A stretch of 64,000 bases of DNA. Source: Rhodospirillaceae bacterium. Lineage in GTDB: Bacteria > Pseudomonadota > Alphaproteobacteria > UBA6615. The notes below the pieces were generated by a model that worked only from the letters and a program-made list of their open reading frames with translations, searched no databases and had not been told where the DNA came from. This document shows positions 1,006 to 8,577 of the stretch, in pieces. The stretch covers positions 62,001 through 126,000 of the forward strand of contig JABIVD010000049.1 in the NCBI GenBank assembly GCA_018667335.1, in the 5' to 3' direction. The first letter of the stretch is position 1; each line of letters starts with the position of its first letter. A program made the position numbers and the translations under genes.

Positions 1006-2052
1006 TTGAAAAAACTTCTGAACAAGCATTTGGGCACAGGGGAGGGCCGGTCCCGGTTGGGACTGGCCTTCACCGTTTTTGCGATCGCGGCATTCTCGCT
1101 GTGGTTCGCGCTGCCGGGCGCGTTTGCGCAGGGCATCTCGAAATGGGAGCGGGAGTTTCCCGGCACCAATTTCGAGACCCGGATCATCGAGCTCGACGAG
1201 ATCAATGATGACGGGAATACGCGGGATTCAATTCCGCCGGTGCGGGATCCGAAATATGTGCCCGTCTCGGAGGTCAAGGATATGGGCCCGCTCGAGCCGG
1301 TGCTGTCGGTTGGTATCAATGGTGATTTCCGGGCCTATCCGCTGCGCATCCTGCTCTGGCACGAGATCGTCAATGAGGTGATCGGCGGCACGCCGGTGCT
1401 GATCAGCTACTGCCCGCTGTGCAATTCGGGCGTGGTGTTCGACCGCCGGGTTGGTGAGCAGCTGTTGGAGTTCGGCAATACCGGGCGGCTGCGGCACCGC
1501 GACATGGTCATGTATGACAAGGAGACCGAGAGCTGGTGGCAGCAATTCACCGGCGAGGCGCTCATCGGTGATCTCTCGGGCAAACGCATGACCCCGGTTC
1601 CGGCCCGCCTGGAATCGCTTGCCCGGTTCCGTGAACGCGCGCCGGACGGCCAGGTGCTGGTGCCCGAGAATGATGGCGCGCGGCCCTACGGATCATCACC
1701 CTATGTGGGCATGGACACCCAGCGTATCCCGCGCGCGCTTCAGGCGGTTCACTTCCCTTATCCACTGCCGGAAGGCGTGAGCCCGATGGACCGGGTGGTG
1801 GTCGTGGGTGACGAGGCCTGGACCCTCGCGGCGCTGCGCGAGAATTCGCCTGTCGTGGACGATGATCTGGTGCTGACATGGGAATCCGGCCAGAACTCCA
1901 TCCACGACACGCAACTGATCTTCCGGGGCCGCGACGTGGGAAATGTCGTGGTCCAGAGAAAGTCCGCCGACGGTGCCAAGGACGTGCCCTATGACGTGGT
2001 GTTCGCCTTCTCGTTCCGCGCATTCAATCCGGATGGCACGCTTCACCGCTAG
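1006..2052 (+). CDS. DUF3179 family exported protein, copy 2
   Basis: This is a 348-residue paralogue of its neighbours, with a clear signal peptide: a basic N-terminus, a hydrophobic core at about residues 19-38 and a cleavage site after PGAFA. The family blocks are all present: WHEIVNE, YCPLCNSGVVFDR, ESWWQQF and WESGQNS. No ATG is available. The assumed start is TTG at 1006, which gives a KKLLNK-type basic n-region. A second TTG at 1057 has a GGAGG eleven bases upstream and would give a shorter signal peptide, so the start is uncertain. It lies 27 bases after copy 1 and overlaps copy 3, so all three are probably co-transcribed. Biochemical function is unknown. Confidence 0.85.
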   Translation: MKKLLNKHLGTGEGRSRLGLAFTVFAIAAFSLWFALPGAFAQGISKWEREFPGTNFETRIIELDEINDDGNTRDSIPPVRDPKYVPVSEVKDMGPLEPVLSVGINGDFRAYPLRILLWHEIVNEVIGGTPVLISYCPLCNSGVVFDRRVGEQLLEFGNTGRLRHRDMVMYDKETESWWQQFTGEALIGDLSGKRMTPVPARLESLARFRERAPDGQVLVPENDGARPYGSSPYVGMDTQRIPRALQAVHFPYPLPEGVSPMDRVVVVGDEAWTLAALRENSPVVDDDLVLTWESGQNSIHDTQLIFRGRDVGNVVVQRKSADGAKDVPYDVVFAFSFRAFNPDGTLHR

Positions 2053-3034
2053 CGCGCTCGTGCTGGTGGCCGCGCTGCTCATCGGGACGGCAGGTGCGTC
2101 GGCCGATCTGGCATTGTGGAAGAGCGAGTTTCCGCTGACCGATTTCGCGCGCGCCCAGGTGCCGCTCGCCGAAATCGAGGATGACGGCAACTACCGCGAT
2201 ACAATCTCACCCATCGACGATCCTGTTTTCCAGCCGGTGGCGGCGCTGACCGCGATGGGGCCGCTCGAGCCGGTGCTTTCGCTCATAATCGATGGTGATG
2301 CACGCGCCTACCCGCTGCGCATGCTGCTGTGGCACGAGATCGTCAACGACACAGTCGGCGGCGTGCCGGTCCTCATTAGCTACTGCCCGTTGTGCAATTC
2401 CGGTGTCGTCTATGATCGCCGGGTCGACGGGCAGGCCGTGCAGTTCGGGAACACCGGCCGTATCCGGCATGCGGATATGGTGATGTATGACCGCGCGACG
2501 GAAAGCTGGTGGCAGCAATTCACCGGCGAGGCGATCGTGGGGTCGCAGGCAGGCACGCTGTTGCGGGCATTGCCGGCGCGGCTGGAATCTCTCGCGCGGT
2601 TTCGTGCACGCGCGCCGGACGGCCAGGTGATGATCCCGGCCGACGTGATGCGCCAGCCCTATGGCGAGACGCCGTATTTCCATATGGATTCATTGTGGGA
2701 CACCCAGTCGCGGACCATGGTGCGCGAGCGCTTTCCGTCGGATTTGCCCGACGGGATATCGCCGCTGACCCGGGTCGTCGCCGTCGGCGACCGGGCCTGG
2801 TCGGTGGATCTGGTGCAGGCGCGCGGACGGGTTGAGGCGAACGGCCTGATCCTGACCTGGCATGCCGGGCAGAACTCGATCCATGACAGCCCGTGGATAC
2901 CCGCGGGCCGCGATGTCGGAAATATTTTCGTTCAGAAAGCCGGACCGGACGGGGGACTTCGCGACGTCCCCTATGACGTGACGTTCGCGTTTGCATTCCG
3001 GACGTTTCGCCCGGACGGCGAGATCGCATTCTGA
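2033..3034 (+). CDS. DUF3179 family exported protein, copy 3
   Basis: A 333-residue third paralogue. The ATG at 2033 is chosen because it begins directly with a signal peptide (MARFTASALVLVAALL, cleavage after GASA); the frame is open further upstream but that part is only the shadow of copy 2. The gene overlaps the end of copy 2 by 20 bases, which suggests translational coupling. It keeps WHEIVND, YCPLCNSGVVYDR, ESWWQQF and the conserved QNSIHD block. It resembles copy 2 more than copy 1, for example in the inserted PYGxxPY segment near residue 205, so copies 2 and 3 are probably the younger duplication. Confidence 0.85.
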   Translation: MARFTASALVLVAALLIGTAGASADLALWKSEFPLTDFARAQVPLAEIEDDGNYRDTISPIDDPVFQPVAALTAMGPLEPVLSLIIDGDARAYPLRMLLWHEIVNDTVGGVPVLISYCPLCNSGVVYDRRVDGQAVQFGNTGRIRHADMVMYDRATESWWQQFTGEAIVGSQAGTLLRALPARLESLARFRARAPDGQVMIPADVMRQPYGETPYFHMDSLWDTQSRTMVRERFPSDLPDGISPLTRVVAVGDRAWSVDLVQARGRVEANGLILTWHAGQNSIHDSPWIPAGRDVGNIFVQKAGPDGGLRDVPYDVTFAFAFRTFRPDGEIAF

Positions 3035-3106: not shown

Positions 3107-5233
3107 ATGCCGCTCGATCAAACCCGACCGAATACGCCTGTCGAAGGCCCCGACGCCGGCAGCAATGCTGATGGCGAGGTGAAGCTGTTTCATTCGGCCT
3201 GCCCGCATGATTGCCCGAGCACCTGTGCGCTGGAGGTCGAACGCCTGACGCCGCAGACAATCGGCCGGGTACGCGGGGCGAGCGCCAACACCTACACGGC
3301 GGGCGTGATCTGCGCCAAGGTCGCGCGCTATGCCGAGCGGGTTCATCATCCCGACCGCCTGACCAAACCTCTGCGCCGCGTCGGCAAGAAGGGTGTGGGC
3401 CGGGAGGCCTTCGAGGAAATTTCCTGGGACGAGGCATTGGATACCGTCGCCGAAGCGCTGACCCGCGCCGCGGCGAAGCATGGACCGGAGACGGTCTGGC
3501 CGTTCTTCTATGCCGGCACGATGGGCCTGGTGCAGCGCGACGGGATCGAGCGGCTGCGTCATACGATGGGCTATTCGCGCCAGCACTCGACCTTTTGCAA
3601 CGCCCTGTCGGACGCGGGCTGGATGGCCGGGGTTGGCGCGAAATGGGGTGTGGATGCGCGTGAGATGGCGGATTCCGACCTGATAGTCATCTGGGGGTGC
3701 AACCCGGTGAGCACCCAGGTCAACGTGATGAGCCATGCGACGCGCGCGCGCAAAAACCGCGGCGCGAAGATCGTGGTTGTCGATCCCTATGTGACAGAGA
3801 CCGCCAAGCAGGCGGATATTCACCTGATGCCCAACCCGGGCACCGACGGCGCCCTGGCGTGCGCGGTCATGCATGTCCTGTTTCGCGACGGGCTGGCGGA
3901 CCGGGACTATCTGGCGAAATACACCGCCGATGCCGATGCGCTGGAGGCGCATCTCGCCGCGCGTACACCGGAATGGGCGTCGGAGATCACCGCGATCCCG
4001 GTGGCGGAGATAGAGGCCTTCGCCAAGCTGTATGGCGCGAACAAGCGCAGTTATCTGCGGCTCGGCTTCGGGTTTACCCGGTCGCGAAATGGCGCGGTGC
4101 AGATGTTCTCCGCGAGCTGCCTGCCGGCCGTTACCGGTGCGTGGCAGCACCCCGGCGGCGGCGCGCTTTATTCGCACGGGGCCATCTACGGCATCGACAA
4201 GACGCTGATCGAGGGGCACGACGTCTGCGACACGAAAGTGCGTGTGCTCGATCAGTCGCGGATCGGGCCGATCCTGACGGGCGACCCACGCGATCTTGGG
4301 GATGGGCCGCCGGTGACGGCGTTGTTCATTCAGAACACCAACCCGATGAATGTCGCGCCTGATCTGGGCAAGGTTCGTGCCGGCTTCGGCCGCGACGACT
4401 TGTTTGTCTGCGTGCATGAGCAATTCATGACCGAGACTGCGGAGATGGCGGATATCGTCCTGCCCGCGACGACGTTCCTGGAACATGATGATTTCTACGT
4501 CGCCGGCGGACACACCCATCTTCAGGTGACCCGCGCTGTGATCGAGCCGGTGGGCGAGGCGCGCTCGAACCATGACGTGCTGTGCGCGCTGGCCAGGCGG
4601 TTGGGCGCATCTCATCCGGGTTTTGACATGGATGCGTGGGGCCTGATGGATGAAACCCTGCGCCGGTCGGGTTATTCAGGCGCCGAGGCGGTCTGGGAAG
4701 GGCATTGGGACGACCGGGCACAGGCGTTCGATGAGGCACATTTCATCGATGGTTTCGGGCACCCGAACGGGAAGTTCCACTTCGCGCCCGACTGGTCGAA
4801 GATCGGCGGCAACCATAACGGCATGCCGCGCTTGCCGGATCATGATGCGAACATCGACAACCGCGACGATGACCACCCCTATCGCCTGGTGACCGCGCCG
4901 TCGCGCAACTATCTGAACACCAGCTTCACGGAGACCGCGACCAGCCAGGCGCGCGAGGGAAGGCCAGAAGCACAGATCCATCCCGATATTTGCGCCGAAC
5001 TCGGCCTTGCGGCCGGCGGTCTCGTACGGATTGGCAATACGCAAGGCTCGGTCGTCGTGCATGTGCGCCCGACCGAGGGGATGCGCCGGGGCACCGTGGT
5101 CGTCGAGAGCGTCTGGCCGAACCGGGCCTTCGTGGAAGGGATCGGGATCAATCTGCTGATCAGCGCGGATGCGGGCCGGCCGAACGGTGGTGCTGTGTTC
5201 CACGATACCGCCGTCTGGTTGCGTGGCGCATGA
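3107..5233 (+). CDS. Molybdopterin-dependent oxidoreductase (DMSO reductase family, BisC/anaerobic dehydrogenase-like)
   Basis: A 708-residue catalytic subunit of the Mo-bisMGD superfamily. Cysteines 32, 36 and 40 (CPHDCPSTC) with Cys69 form the pattern Cx3Cx3Cx28C expected for the N-terminal 4Fe-4S cluster. Later segments match the family: a WGCNP block, ETAEMADIVLPATTFLEHDD, and a C-terminal cofactor-binding domain with SRNYLNTSF and a closing NGGAVFHDTAVW. No Tat or other signal peptide is visible, so the enzyme is probably cytoplasmic. A GGAGAA ribosome site precedes the ATG. The substrate cannot be told from sequence. The gene follows three DUF3179 genes after 72 bases and overlaps mipZ by 4 bases. 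No electron-transfer partner subunit is nearby, so it may work alone or with a distant partner. Confidence 0.88.
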   Translation: MPLDQTRPNTPVEGPDAGSNADGEVKLFHSACPHDCPSTCALEVERLTPQTIGRVRGASANTYTAGVICAKVARYAERVHHPDRLTKPLRRVGKKGVGREAFEEISWDEALDTVAEALTRAAAKHGPETVWPFFYAGTMGLVQRDGIERLRHTMGYSRQHSTFCNALSDAGWMAGVGAKWGVDAREMADSDLIVIWGCNPVSTQVNVMSHATRARKNRGAKIVVVDPYVTETAKQADIHLMPNPGTDGALACAVMHVLFRDGLADRDYLAKYTADADALEAHLAARTPEWASEITAIPVAEIEAFAKLYGANKRSYLRLGFGFTRSRNGAVQMFSASCLPAVTGAWQHPGGGALYSHGAIYGIDKTLIEGHDVCDTKVRVLDQSRIGPILTGDPRDLGDGPPVTALFIQNTNPMNVAPDLGKVRAGFGRDDLFVCVHEQFMTETAEMADIVLPATTFLEHDDFYVAGGHTHLQVTRAVIEPVGEARSNHDVLCALARRLGASHPGFDMDAWGLMDETLRRSGYSGAEAVWEGHWDDRAQAFDEAHFIDGFGHPNGKFHFAPDWSKIGGNHNGMPRLPDHDANIDNRDDDHPYRLVTAPSRNYLNTSFTETATSQAREGRPEAQIHPDICAELGLAAGGLVRIGNTQGSVVVHVRPTEGMRRGTVVVESVWPNRAFVEGIGINLLISADAGRPNGGAVFHDTAVWLRGA

Positions 5234-6135
5234 TGACGCAAGCGCCAGAGACCGACGCACCGGACAATTCTCGTCCTGCGGGGGTCGATGCGACCGTCAT
5301 TGTTCTGGGCAATGAGAAGGGCGGGACCGGCAAGTCGACGACGGCGATGCACGTCATCGTCGGCCTGTTGCGCGAAGGCTATACGGTCGGCGCGGTCGAC
5401 CTGGACGCGCGCCAGGGCTCGCTGGCGCGATATTTCGACAATCGCCGGATCTACGCCGCGAAGATGGGGCTGGAACTGCCCCATCCGATCTACCGGGCGA
5501 TCGGTCTCAGCGACTTGCGGGATCGATACCTGGCCAAGAAGGATGACCGCCTGCGGCTCGCCGCAACGCTGGCTGAATTGAGCGAGACCTGTGATGTCAT
5601 CGTCATGGACACGCCGGGCAGCGACAATGCCCTGTCACGCGTCGGCCATTCCTATGCCGATATCCTGATCACGCCGATCAATGACAGCTTCGTCGACCTG
5701 GACCTGCTGGGGCGGGTCGATCACGAGACCAACGAGGTCCGCGCGCTGAGCAGTTATGCGGAGATGGTGTGGGAGCAGAGGAAAGTGCGCGCCCAGCGCG
5801 ATGGTGGTTCGATCGACTGGATCGTGATGCGCAACCGGTTGGCGACCCTCGACACGCGAAACAAGCGCAACATGGATGCAGCACTGGAAGCGCTGTCGAA
5901 GCGGATCGGCTTTCGCCTCGCACACGGGTTCAGCGAGCGTGTGATTTTCCGCGAATTGTTCCTGAAGGGGCTGACCCTTCTTGACGTTCGCGAGCAGGGG
6001 GCCGATGTCACCTTGACCATGTCTCACATGGCGGCCCTGCAGGAGGTGCGAAACCTGTTGCAGGCAGTCGGCGTGCCCGAGGCGGCGGATACACCGGATG
6101 TGACGGCCGCGCGACAGGAGACGATAGCATCGTGA
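5230..6135 (+). CDS. mipZ: Division-plane positioning ATPase MipZ
   Basis: A 301-residue ParA/MinD-type ATPase. The deviant Walker A motif GNEKGGTGKST has the signature Lys30 and Lys35; it is followed by DLDARQGSLARYFDNR, a MipZ hallmark, and a Walker B-like VIVMDTPG. In Caulobacter, MipZ forms a bipolar gradient from ParB at the origins and blocks FtsZ polymerisation away from midcell; alphaproteobacteria use it where other bacteria use MinCD. The ATG at 5230 overlaps the stop of the oxidoreductase gene (ATGA); a second ATG follows immediately. The next gene starts at a GTGA overlap with the mipZ stop. Unlike typical parA, no parB is adjacent, which fits MipZ. Confidence 0.92.
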   Translation: MMTQAPETDAPDNSRPAGVDATVIVLGNEKGGTGKSTTAMHVIVGLLREGYTVGAVDLDARQGSLARYFDNRRIYAAKMGLELPHPIYRAIGLSDLRDRYLAKKDDRLRLAATLAELSETCDVIVMDTPGSDNALSRVGHSYADILITPINDSFVDLDLLGRVDHETNEVRALSSYAEMVWEQRKVRAQRDGGSIDWIVMRNRLATLDTRNKRNMDAALEALSKRIGFRLAHGFSERVIFRELFLKGLTLLDVREQGADVTLTMSHMAALQEVRNLLQAVGVPEAADTPDVTAARQETIAS

Positions 6136-6857
6136 CGGGCACGGAACGCGATCCGAAACTTCCTGCCGACGCTTCGTCGCGCGCGGATATCGACGCGTTT
6201 CTGCAGAAGGTCGCGGCGACGCCTCCGACCAAGCCCGCGGGGCGACCCGGGCGGCTGCTGTTTGCGATCGATGCCACGGCCAGCCGGGAGCCCACCTGGG
6301 ACATGGCGTGCCAGATTCAGTCCGAGATGTTCGCCTCGACGGACGACATTGGCGGGCTGGAGGTGCAACTCGCCTTTTATCGCGGCTTCGGCGAGATGAA
6401 GGTGACCCACTGGCTCGAATCACCCGAAGAGCTGGTCCGGCGCATGATCAAGGTGCGCTGCCTCGCGGGCCGCACGCAGATCCGCAAGCTTTTGCGCCAC
6501 GCGCTCAAGGAAACGAACACGCAGAAAGTGGACGCGCTGGTCTTTGTCGGCGACGTTGTGGAAGAGGATATCGACGAGCTGGGGCATATCGCGGGTCAGC
6601 TCGGGCTGGTGGGAACACCGGTGTTCGTTTTCCATGAGGGCGGGGAGCCGGTTTCCCGGCGCGCATTCGAGCAGATCGCCAAACTGTCCGGCGGTGCCTA
6701 TTGCGGGTTCGATGCGGGCAGCGCCCAGCAACTGCGTGAATTGCTGGCCGCCGTCGCGGTCTTCTCGGCAGGCGGCCGCCGCGCGCTCGAGGATTTCGGG
6801 AAGCGCAAGGGCGGGCGGGTTCTCCAGATTGCCGATCAGATGCGCGGCGGGAAGTAG
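6132..6857 (+). CDS. VWA-like domain protein of unknown function
   Basis: A 241-residue soluble protein. Around residues 42-60 it has LLFAIDATASRE, where DATAS fits a variant MIDAS metal site (DxS/TxS) of von Willebrand A domains; a later strand LVFVGDVVEED and a FDAGSAQQLRELL helix fit the same fold. I recognise no enzyme motif. The GTG start overlaps the mipZ stop by 4 bases, and a membrane J-domain gene begins 9 bases after its stop, so the three are probably one transcript. VWA domains usually mediate protein-protein contact through a bound metal, so a scaffold or adaptor role is a guess. The assignment to the VWA fold is by motif only. Confidence 0.75.
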   Translation: MTGTERDPKLPADASSRADIDAFLQKVAATPPTKPAGRPGRLLFAIDATASREPTWDMACQIQSEMFASTDDIGGLEVQLAFYRGFGEMKVTHWLESPEELVRRMIKVRCLAGRTQIRKLLRHALKETNTQKVDALVFVGDVVEEDIDELGHIAGQLGLVGTPVFVFHEGGEPVSRRAFEQIAKLSGGAYCGFDAGSAQQLRELLAAVAVFSAGGRRALEDFGKRKGGRVLQIADQMRGGK

Positions 6858-6866
6858 GATCGATAT

Positions 6867-7607
6867 ATGTTGCCCTTGCTAGTCCTCGCGATCTTCGTCC
6901 TAGTGGGCTTGTATCTCGTCTCGCGCTGGTATGTCACCGCGCAACCGGCTCAAATCATCCGGGCGATCCGCTGGACGGGTGCGATTTTGCTGGTGGTCGG
7001 CCTGATCGCGATTGTGCTTTCGGGACGCTGGAACTTCATTTGGGCGTTGCTGGTTCCCGCGATGCCATTCCTGACGCGACTGCGCGCGATCAACACGATG
7101 CGCAAGAATGCACGCGGCCCGCGCGCGGGCCAGTCGAGCCAGGTCGAGACGCGTTTTCTGCGGATGGAGCTCGATCACGATACCGGTGAAATGGATGGCG
7201 AGGTCCGCGAAGGGCCGCTGTCCGGACGGATGCTGTCGGCACTCAAGCTCGGTGAGATGGTCGAGCTCTGGCGCCTCTGCGCCGTCGAGGATGAGCAGTC
7301 TCGCAGCGTGCTGGAGAGCTTTATGGACCGAAATCACCCCGATTGGCGCGATGTTGCCGGGGGTGATGCGGGGGCCGGACGGCGCGACGCCGGTGATGGG
7401 GCGTCGGGTAGCGCAAGCCCCTGGACCCAGACTGGCATGAGCGAGGCCGAGGCGCGCGAGATACTGGGTGTGGACGAAAAGGCGTCGGACTCCGACATCG
7501 AGGCCGCCTACCGAACCGAAATGAAACGCGCGCATCCCGACCAGGGTGGTTCCGACTGGATGGCCGCAAAGGTCAATCAGGCAAAAGATACGCTGCACGG
7601 GCGGTAA
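6867..7607 (+). CDS. Membrane-anchored J-domain (DnaJ-like) protein, Tim14/Pam18-like C-terminus
   Basis: A 246-residue protein with two or three N-terminal membrane segments (about residues 1-20 and 35-70), a soluble middle and a C-terminal J domain. The C-terminal 55 residues (GMSEAEAREILGVD ... AHPDQGG ... AAKVNQAKDTLHGR) carry the HPD tripeptide that stimulates DnaK ATPase, and the shape HPDxGGSxxxAAKxNxAKDxL is that of mitochondrial Tim14/Pam18 and its alphaproteobacterial relatives (TimB in Caulobacter). J domains recruit DnaK to a site; here the site would be the inner membrane. It is the last gene of the mipZ group. Its client is unknown. Confidence 0.85.
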   Translation: MLPLLVLAIFVLVGLYLVSRWYVTAQPAQIIRAIRWTGAILLVVGLIAIVLSGRWNFIWALLVPAMPFLTRLRAINTMRKNARGPRAGQSSQVETRFLRMELDHDTGEMDGEVREGPLSGRMLSALKLGEMVELWRLCAVEDEQSRSVLESFMDRNHPDWRDVAGGDAGAGRRDAGDGASGSASPWTQTGMSEAEAREILGVDEKASDSDIEAAYRTEMKRAHPDQGGSDWMAAKVNQAKDTLHGR

Positions 7608-7695: not shown

Positions 7696-8577
7696 ATGAC
7701 CAATCGCATCCGCAAGGCGATATTTCCCGTGGGTGGTATGGGAACCCGGTTTCTGCCGGCCACCAAAGCCCTGCCGAAAGAGATGCTGCCGGTCGTTGAC
7801 CGGCCGCTCATTCAGTATGCCGTTGATGAGGCACGCGCCGCAGGCATTGAGCAGTTCATCTTCGTGACAGGCCGCGGCAAGAGCGCGATCGAGGACCATT
7901 TCGATCGCAGCATCGAGCTCGAGGCGTTGCTTGAAGAGAAGGGCAAGTCGGCGGAGCTTACCGACATCCACGAGGCTCTCCTGCAACCTGGCAACATCGC
8001 CTATGTCCGCCAGCAGGAACCGCTAGGCCTGGGCCACGCCGTCTGGTGTGCGCGGCACCTCGTCGGCGACGAACCGTTTGCCGTGTTGCTGGCCGACGAT
8101 TTGATCCAGGCCGAGACGCCGTGCCTGCGCCAGATGGTCGATGTCTTCGAGACCGAAGGCGGGAATGTCATCGCGGCGATGGAAGTGCCCGACGAACACA
8201 CGTCGCGCTACGGCATTATCGATTCCGGCGGCGCCGATGGACGCGTCCGTCCGGTCACGGGGCTGGTCGAAAAGCCTGCGCAGGGAACCGCACCGTCGAA
8301 CCTGGCGGTGATCGGCCGTTATATCCTGACCCCAGATGTGTTCAAGGAGCTGGAGCGCCAGGAGACGGGGGCGGGTGGCGAAATCCAATTGACGGACGCG
8401 ATGGCCAAACTGATCGGCCGGCAGCCGTTCCATGGCCTCGCCTTCGAGGGCCGGCGGTTCGACTGCGGCGACAAGCTCGGGTTTCTTGAGGCGAATTTGG
8501 CGTTTGCGCTTGAACGCGACGATCTGGGCCCCGGTACACGAGAGATGCTGGCGCGCATGGGAGACATTTCCGAATGA
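7696..8577 (+). CDS. galU: UTP-glucose-1-phosphate uridylyltransferase GalU
   Basis: At 293 residues it has the usual GalU length. It makes UDP-glucose from UTP and glucose-1-phosphate. The N-terminal nucleotide-binding motif GGMGTRFLPATKALPKEML is intact, followed by the RPLIQYAVDEA block, the LLADD segment, and VEKP and GGEIQLTDA near the C-terminus. The ATG has no recognisable Shine-Dalgarno sequence. It overlaps ugd by 4 bases, so product and next enzyme are encoded together. Its product feeds UDP-glucuronate and glucosylated surface polymers. Confidence 0.95.
   Translation: MTNRIRKAIFPVGGMGTRFLPATKALPKEMLPVVDRPLIQYAVDEARAAGIEQFIFVTGRGKSAIEDHFDRSIELEALLEEKGKSAELTDIHEALLQPGNIAYVRQQEPLGLGHAVWCARHLVGDEPFAVLLADDLIQAETPCLRQMVDVFETEGGNVIAAMEVPDEHTSRYGIIDSGGADGRVRPVTGLVEKPAQGTAPSNLAVIGRYILTPDVFKELERQETGAGGEIQLTDAMAKLIGRQPFHGLAFEGRRFDCGDKLGFLEANLAFALERDDLGPGTREMLARMGDISE

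Follow-up and report, generated by a model that had tools for sequence, protein, structure and literature searches.

A VWA–J protein gene pair, often linked to mipZ, in Alphaproteobacteria

Why does mipZ, the gene for a division-site ATPase, run directly into genes for a VWA-fold protein and a membrane J protein? The question is raised by a 64,000-nucleotide stretch of a Rhodospirillaceae bacterium genome (GenBank assembly GCA_018667335.1, contig JABIVD010000049.1, positions 62,001 to 126,000, forward strand), referred to here as the window, in which mipZ and the VWA gene overlap by GTGA and a gap of 9 nucleotides (6858–6866) separates the VWA gene from the J gene. The initial annotation, made from the sequence alone, had described this run with coordinates that we confirmed, and had proposed that the J protein performs a chaperone step at the membrane on MipZ or a divisome client with the VWA protein as adaptor. 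The stable unit across Alphaproteobacteria is the VWA–J pair and not the mipZ–VWA–J trio, and we put at roughly 60% the probability that this pair is the functional unit, consisting of a membrane-anchored recruiter of DnaK and its dedicated VWA partner.

Conservation of the VWA–J pair

The distribution of the genes was surveyed in 337 alphaproteobacterial genomes, each at least 90% complete, counting only strong matches for MipZ and leaving out two very weak extra matches for VWA. VWA was found in 131 genomes and MipZ in 168. When a J gene was scored as following VWA if it lay on the same strand within 600 nucleotides, J came directly after 126 of the 134 VWA copies with a median gap of 19 nucleotides. 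Seven of the eight copies without an adjacent J gene were in genomes with a long J gene elsewhere. Three genomes had two VWA copies, every one of them with a J gene of its own next to it. Roseospira (L061) is one carrier of the pair and a candidate for a MipZ-free species. The pair is also present in Gammaproteobacteria, without mipZ nearby.

Of the 337 genomes, 70 carried both VWA and MipZ, 61 carried VWA but no MipZ, 98 MipZ but no VWA, and 108 neither, which shows no association between the two (odds ratio 1.26, p = 0.32). VWA and J probably work together, and nearly half of the carriers are without MipZ. Of the 70 genomes with both genes, 43 had mipZ immediately before VWA, and another 16 had the two within 10 kb of each other. 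Among the first 64 loci collected, some of them cut by contig ends, J was present at 60 and mipZ at 42. The three-gene order is conserved far beyond chance, recurring in many alphaproteobacterial families. In several genomes, a second strong MipZ-family gene was found away from the first (G012:C2:305494, G024:C90:95341, G030:C521:1125, G202:C1:878685, and G060:C64:45205).

The two proteins and a candidate interface

The model of the J protein (predicted local distance difference test, pLDDT, 87) has three long N-terminal helices (residues 2–82), a beta/alpha middle domain (about residues 88–170), and a C-terminal J domain; a fold search with the whole model returned essentially J-domain matches alone and did not place the middle domain. 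The J domain matched PF00226 (6.9e-7, 29.7 bits against a cut-off of 27.8) and carries the motif HPDQGGSDWMAAKVNQAKD, in which HPD and the GG after it do not vary among aligned J relatives. When a profile of the J family was searched against solved structures, yeast TIM14 was the best match (1.5e-16, 64 bits, with the next solved J domain at 35), and TIM14 led all other solved J domains by 26–29 bits with profiles of the long and short forms (64–70 versus 35–43). In the reverse search of TIM14 against the five J domains of the genome, the window J protein came out on top at 31.6 bits versus 12.3 for the next; the remaining four were assigned by eye to DnaJ, CbpA, DjlA, and a small soluble J protein. 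A tree of J domains split the window J family and TIM14 from the other J proteins of the genome with a support of 91, on few columns. Another J-domain tree, of 61 columns, was too short to place Tim14 exactly or to count independent changes of VWA and middle domain. Judged by sequence, the window J domain is of Tim14/Pam18 type.

The VWA protein matched no Pfam or NCBIfam model, while 16 of 31 relatives matched VWA_2 weakly (best 4.3e-4, below the level of curated models) and three matched VWA_CoxE weakly. Its AlphaFold model (pLDDT 81) matched PDB structures 182 times at E ≤ 0.001. The top matches were mostly VWA or I domains, and solved VWA domains such as those of Rpn10 and TRAP and the I domains of integrins matched with E values of about 1e-7 to 1e-6. 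In an alignment of the 31 relatives, the five positions of a metal-ion-dependent adhesion site (MIDAS), D47, T49, S51, T115, and D141, were invariant, with the pattern DxTxS...T...D in which a threonine takes the second position instead of DxSxS, and the protein is predicted to carry a complete MIDAS-type metal site in this DxTxS variant. Cysteine C110 (6459–6461), five residues before the MIDAS threonine, was likewise invariant in 31 of 31 relatives. The fold match, the invariant MIDAS, and the weak VWA_2 matches together point to a genuine VWA family, albeit a divergent one, that no model in the libraries searched represents. The labels given by the initial annotation, a VWA-like protein and a Tim14/Pam18-like J domain, have both proved apt, the first through the fold, the VWA_2 matches, and the MIDAS positions and the second through the forward and reverse searches.

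A link between the two proteins is suggested by the middle domain of J, which was tracked with a hidden Markov model (HMM) of residues 88–165. This domain was present at all 167 VWA-bearing loci that had J in the stretch, while in the 54 VWA-less genomes with a Tim14-like J protein it was absent from 44 and present in 10, making it the best candidate for a VWA docking site. Both states were found within six families (f10, f30, f75, f98, f110, and f111), each time with the domain where VWA was present and without it where VWA was absent, a contrast of six to zero (two-sided sign test, about 0.03), and no genome examined combined VWA with a short J protein. The simplest reading is that the middle domain is present for the sake of VWA, which would dock on it physically. 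Four other families include VWA-less genomes that retain the domain (f61, f34, f48, and f68), and in one such genome, G187 (L238, f68), the J protein kept the middle domain and lost the HPD.

Several points weigh against this reading of the pair. Assembly gaps may account for some of the missing genes, there is some redundancy among the 167 loci, and six within-family contrasts are a small number to which the J tree, too short to add power, contributes three supported independent pairs of VWA and middle domain. The ten VWA-less genomes that retain the middle domain may point to another role for it, and a gene and a domain could also co-vary because a pathway was lost as a whole, with no physical contact between them.

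HPD-bearing J domains stimulate Hsp70, and VWA domains of the MIDAS type usually bind an acidic ligand through a metal. On the model that we propose, the J protein would be an integral inner-membrane co-chaperone of Tim14/Pam18 type, held by its hydrophobic N-terminus, whose C-terminal J domain would face the cytosol and, as HPD J domains generally do, recruit and stimulate DnaK at the inner membrane. The soluble VWA protein would dock on the middle domain and either select or present a client or gate its contact with J, and mipZ would be an ancestral operon neighbour (in the order mipZ–VWA–J–galU–ugd–pgm) not required by the pair. Of the adaptor role first suggested for the VWA protein, the part that stands is that of a dedicated partner of J, which fits the co-variation with the middle domain; action directed at MipZ finds no support. 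A bolder version of the model, which we offer as speculation with the odds against it, is that VWA–J is a hitherto undescribed system, tethered to the membrane, that delivers clients to Hsp70 with a MIDAS-gated VWA protein as client receptor, built on the bacterial J family from which the import motor of mitochondria derived its J subunit, and that the same J is tied to MipZ in some Alphaproteobacteria.

The likeness to Tim14/Pam18 (yeast Pam18; human DNAJC19 and DNAJC15) lies in the membrane anchor and in a C-terminal J domain ending in HPDxGGSxxxAxKxNxAKD, and the short bacterial J forms found beside mipZ are about the size and layout of Pam18. The window J protein differs by its extra middle domain of ~80 residues and its VWA partner, and among its neighbouring genes, to which the comparison was confined for Pam16, neither Pam16 nor Tim44 was recognised. 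Clements et al. 2009 is said to have reported alphaproteobacterial relatives of components of the mitochondrial import motor, in which case the kinship with Tim14 is probably not a new finding. DjlA-type proteins, too, act as co-chaperones at the membrane and carry the J domain at the C-terminus, but the DjlA-like protein of this genome is encoded by a separate gene (L098, named by eye), with a J domain that does not resemble that of Tim14 (9.5 bits). The window MipZ is a full-length member of the same Pfam family as Caulobacter MipZ, yet it neighbours the VWA–J unit without defining it. In RavA–ViaA, one of several systems in which VWA proteins partner chaperone-like ATPases, a VWA protein works with a chaperone factor and is linked to complexes in the membrane (PMC10585395). 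The window pair likewise joins a VWA protein to a chaperone-type partner, but that partner is a J-domain protein and not a MoxR AAA+ ATPase, and apart from the VWA fold no sequence kinship was found.

A literature search found nothing on the VWA–J pair or its link to mipZ, and nothing on the trio, for which the initial annotation knew of no described function; subscription papers were mostly outside this search, which makes it weak evidence of novelty. Two hypothetical genes that had no name as a pair, carried by more than one third of the alphaproteobacterial genomes sampled, can now be treated as a co-chaperone/adaptor unit open to testing, with VWA and the middle domain of J as its candidate interface. 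The Tim14-like bacterial J family also gains a concrete gene context (VWA, mipZ, and galU), which offers a route to the function of a bacterial Pam18 relative and to any contact with division-site control.

The place of mipZ

A second architecture, in which J lies behind mipZ without VWA, bears on how mipZ came to stand beside the pair. Of the 98 genomes with MipZ and without VWA, 80 were scanned, the other 18 having no strong J match, and a clear Tim14-like J protein was found in 24 of the 80. J was directly behind mipZ on the same strand in 22 of these 24 (the exceptions being G083 and G173), and nearly all of the VWA-less J proteins next to mipZ were short, consisting of hydrophobic helices, a linker, and the J domain. 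The C-terminal end of the short J protein of G221 reads MTRSEALNILGLSENASKEDIKKAHRRLILSLHPDKGGSAYLAAKINQAREVLLKG, and the short-form profile matched TIM14 at 3.1e-18, 26 bits above the next. J is thus what the two arrangements share: mipZ–J persists where VWA has been lost, and VWA–J where mipZ has been lost. Together with the 43 of 70 genomes in which mipZ is upstream of VWA, the 22 of 24 indicate that mipZ is an old neighbour, while the lack of MipZ in 61 of the 131 VWA genomes shows that it is not an obligate partner. The ancestral segment was likely mipZ–VWA–J–galU–ugd–pgm–dacF–clpS–clpA, as read from gene order with dacF, clpS, and clpA named by eye.

One explanation, compatible with the VWA–J pair as the functional unit, is that mipZ is a hitch-hiker in this old segment, retained through common descent and co-transcription, and that MipZ and J are functionally unconnected. 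The unrelated genes galU, ugd, and pgm are as stably linked to J (at 39, 36, and 15 of 54 loci, respectively), which, with the independence of VWA and MipZ across genomes, argues for such passive linkage; the persistence of mipZ–J in many VWA-less genomes from which galU is gone goes beyond passive order. We would give this explanation even odds.

That same persistence, which makes the mipZ–J link a conserved one, and the 43 genomes with contiguous mipZ–VWA–J speak for the proposal of the initial annotation, that J and VWA serve together as a chaperone step at the membrane for MipZ or a divisome client of it. Against it, VWA–J occurs in the 61 genomes without MipZ, of which 49 also gave no match to a MinC HMM (divergent copies may have been missed), so a role in MipZ action or division cannot be the general function of the pair. 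Tim14-like J proteins were moreover about equally common with MipZ (94 of 168) and without it (100 of 169), and 74 of the 168 MipZ-bearing genomes had no such J protein. With VWA and MipZ also statistically independent, MipZ as the target of the module is not borne out, and a MipZ-specific role for VWA–J, though possible, is weakly supported and in our estimate improbable. Dependence of VWA–J on MipZ as a general rule was ruled out by the 61 MipZ-free genomes, as was dependence on either MipZ or MinC by the 49 that also gave no MinC HMM match, divergent copies aside.

Very improbable, and the least likely of these explanations, is that VWA–J is a cofactor- or metal-insertion machinery akin to the MoxR/VWA systems (CbbO, NorD, and CoxE) serving a neighbouring molybdoenzyme, since the molybdopterin oxidoreductase ahead of mipZ, the weak VWA_CoxE matches, and a large C-terminal VWA protein after J in two gammaproteobacterial loci, which would favour it, are set against an oxidoreductase that is lineage-limited (found mainly in close relatives and at 5 of 54 wider loci), the lack of a recognised MoxR gene among the recurrent neighbours (some of them unannotated), and the lack of any NorD or CbbO match in NCBIfam. 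The two gammaproteobacterial proteins (L053, 6398–8704; L056, 6433–8721) are about 760 residues long, overlap the end of J, and have a C-terminal VWA domain in a CbbO/NorD-like layout, yet matched no such model.

Gene context in the window

The coordinates of the genes and their features are collected in Table 1. MipZ is a full-length match to PF09140 (1.2e-107, 359.6 bits against a cut-off of 20.7, residues 23–283), and mipZ is probably expressed together with VWA–J in this lineage. The stop of the oxidoreductase gene overlaps the mipZ start as ATGA (5230–5233), an overlap absent from the initial annotation, so mipZ may also be translationally coupled to the oxidoreductase in this lineage. 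Downstream of the J gene, ugd comes next after galU.

Table 1 Genes and protein features of the mipZ–VWA–J run and its flanks, in window coordinates
Feature	Position	Strand	Basis or remark
VWA-fold protein, 241 residues	6132–6857	+	GTG 6132, TAG 6855–6857; fold and MIDAS residues
Predicted MIDAS segment D47-A-T49-A-S51 of VWA protein	6270–6284	+	Invariant in 31 relatives
Predicted MIDAS T115 of VWA protein	6474–6476	+	
Predicted MIDAS D141 of VWA protein	6552–6554	+	
Membrane J protein, 246 residues	6867–7607	+	ATG 6867, stop ends 7607; PF00226, TIM14 match
Hydrophobic N-terminal helices of J, residues 2–82, predicted membrane anchor	6870–7112	+	Sequence and model
Middle domain of J, residues 88–165, candidate VWA docking site	7128–7361	+	HMM presence/absence across loci
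Tim14-type J domain, residues 190–246	7434–7604	+	HPD at 7533–7541; TIM14 match
mipZ, division-site P-loop ATPase	5230–6135	+	ATG 5230, TGA 6133–6135; PF09140
Molybdopterin oxidoreductase, upstream context, lineage-limited	3107–5233	+	PF00384, 1.1e-46
galU, conserved downstream neighbour, context	7696–8577	+	TIGR01099

Upstream of the oxidoreductase gene are three consecutive DUF3179-like genes (58–978, 1006–2052, and about 1943–3034); DUF3179 genes, a family name transferred from a relative, recur upstream of VWA–J at 14 of 54 loci. In one genome, G021 (L028, L030, and L063), the oxidoreductase, mipZ, and VWA genes are all frame-split on a single contig, a pattern that suggests misassembly more than decay of the genes.

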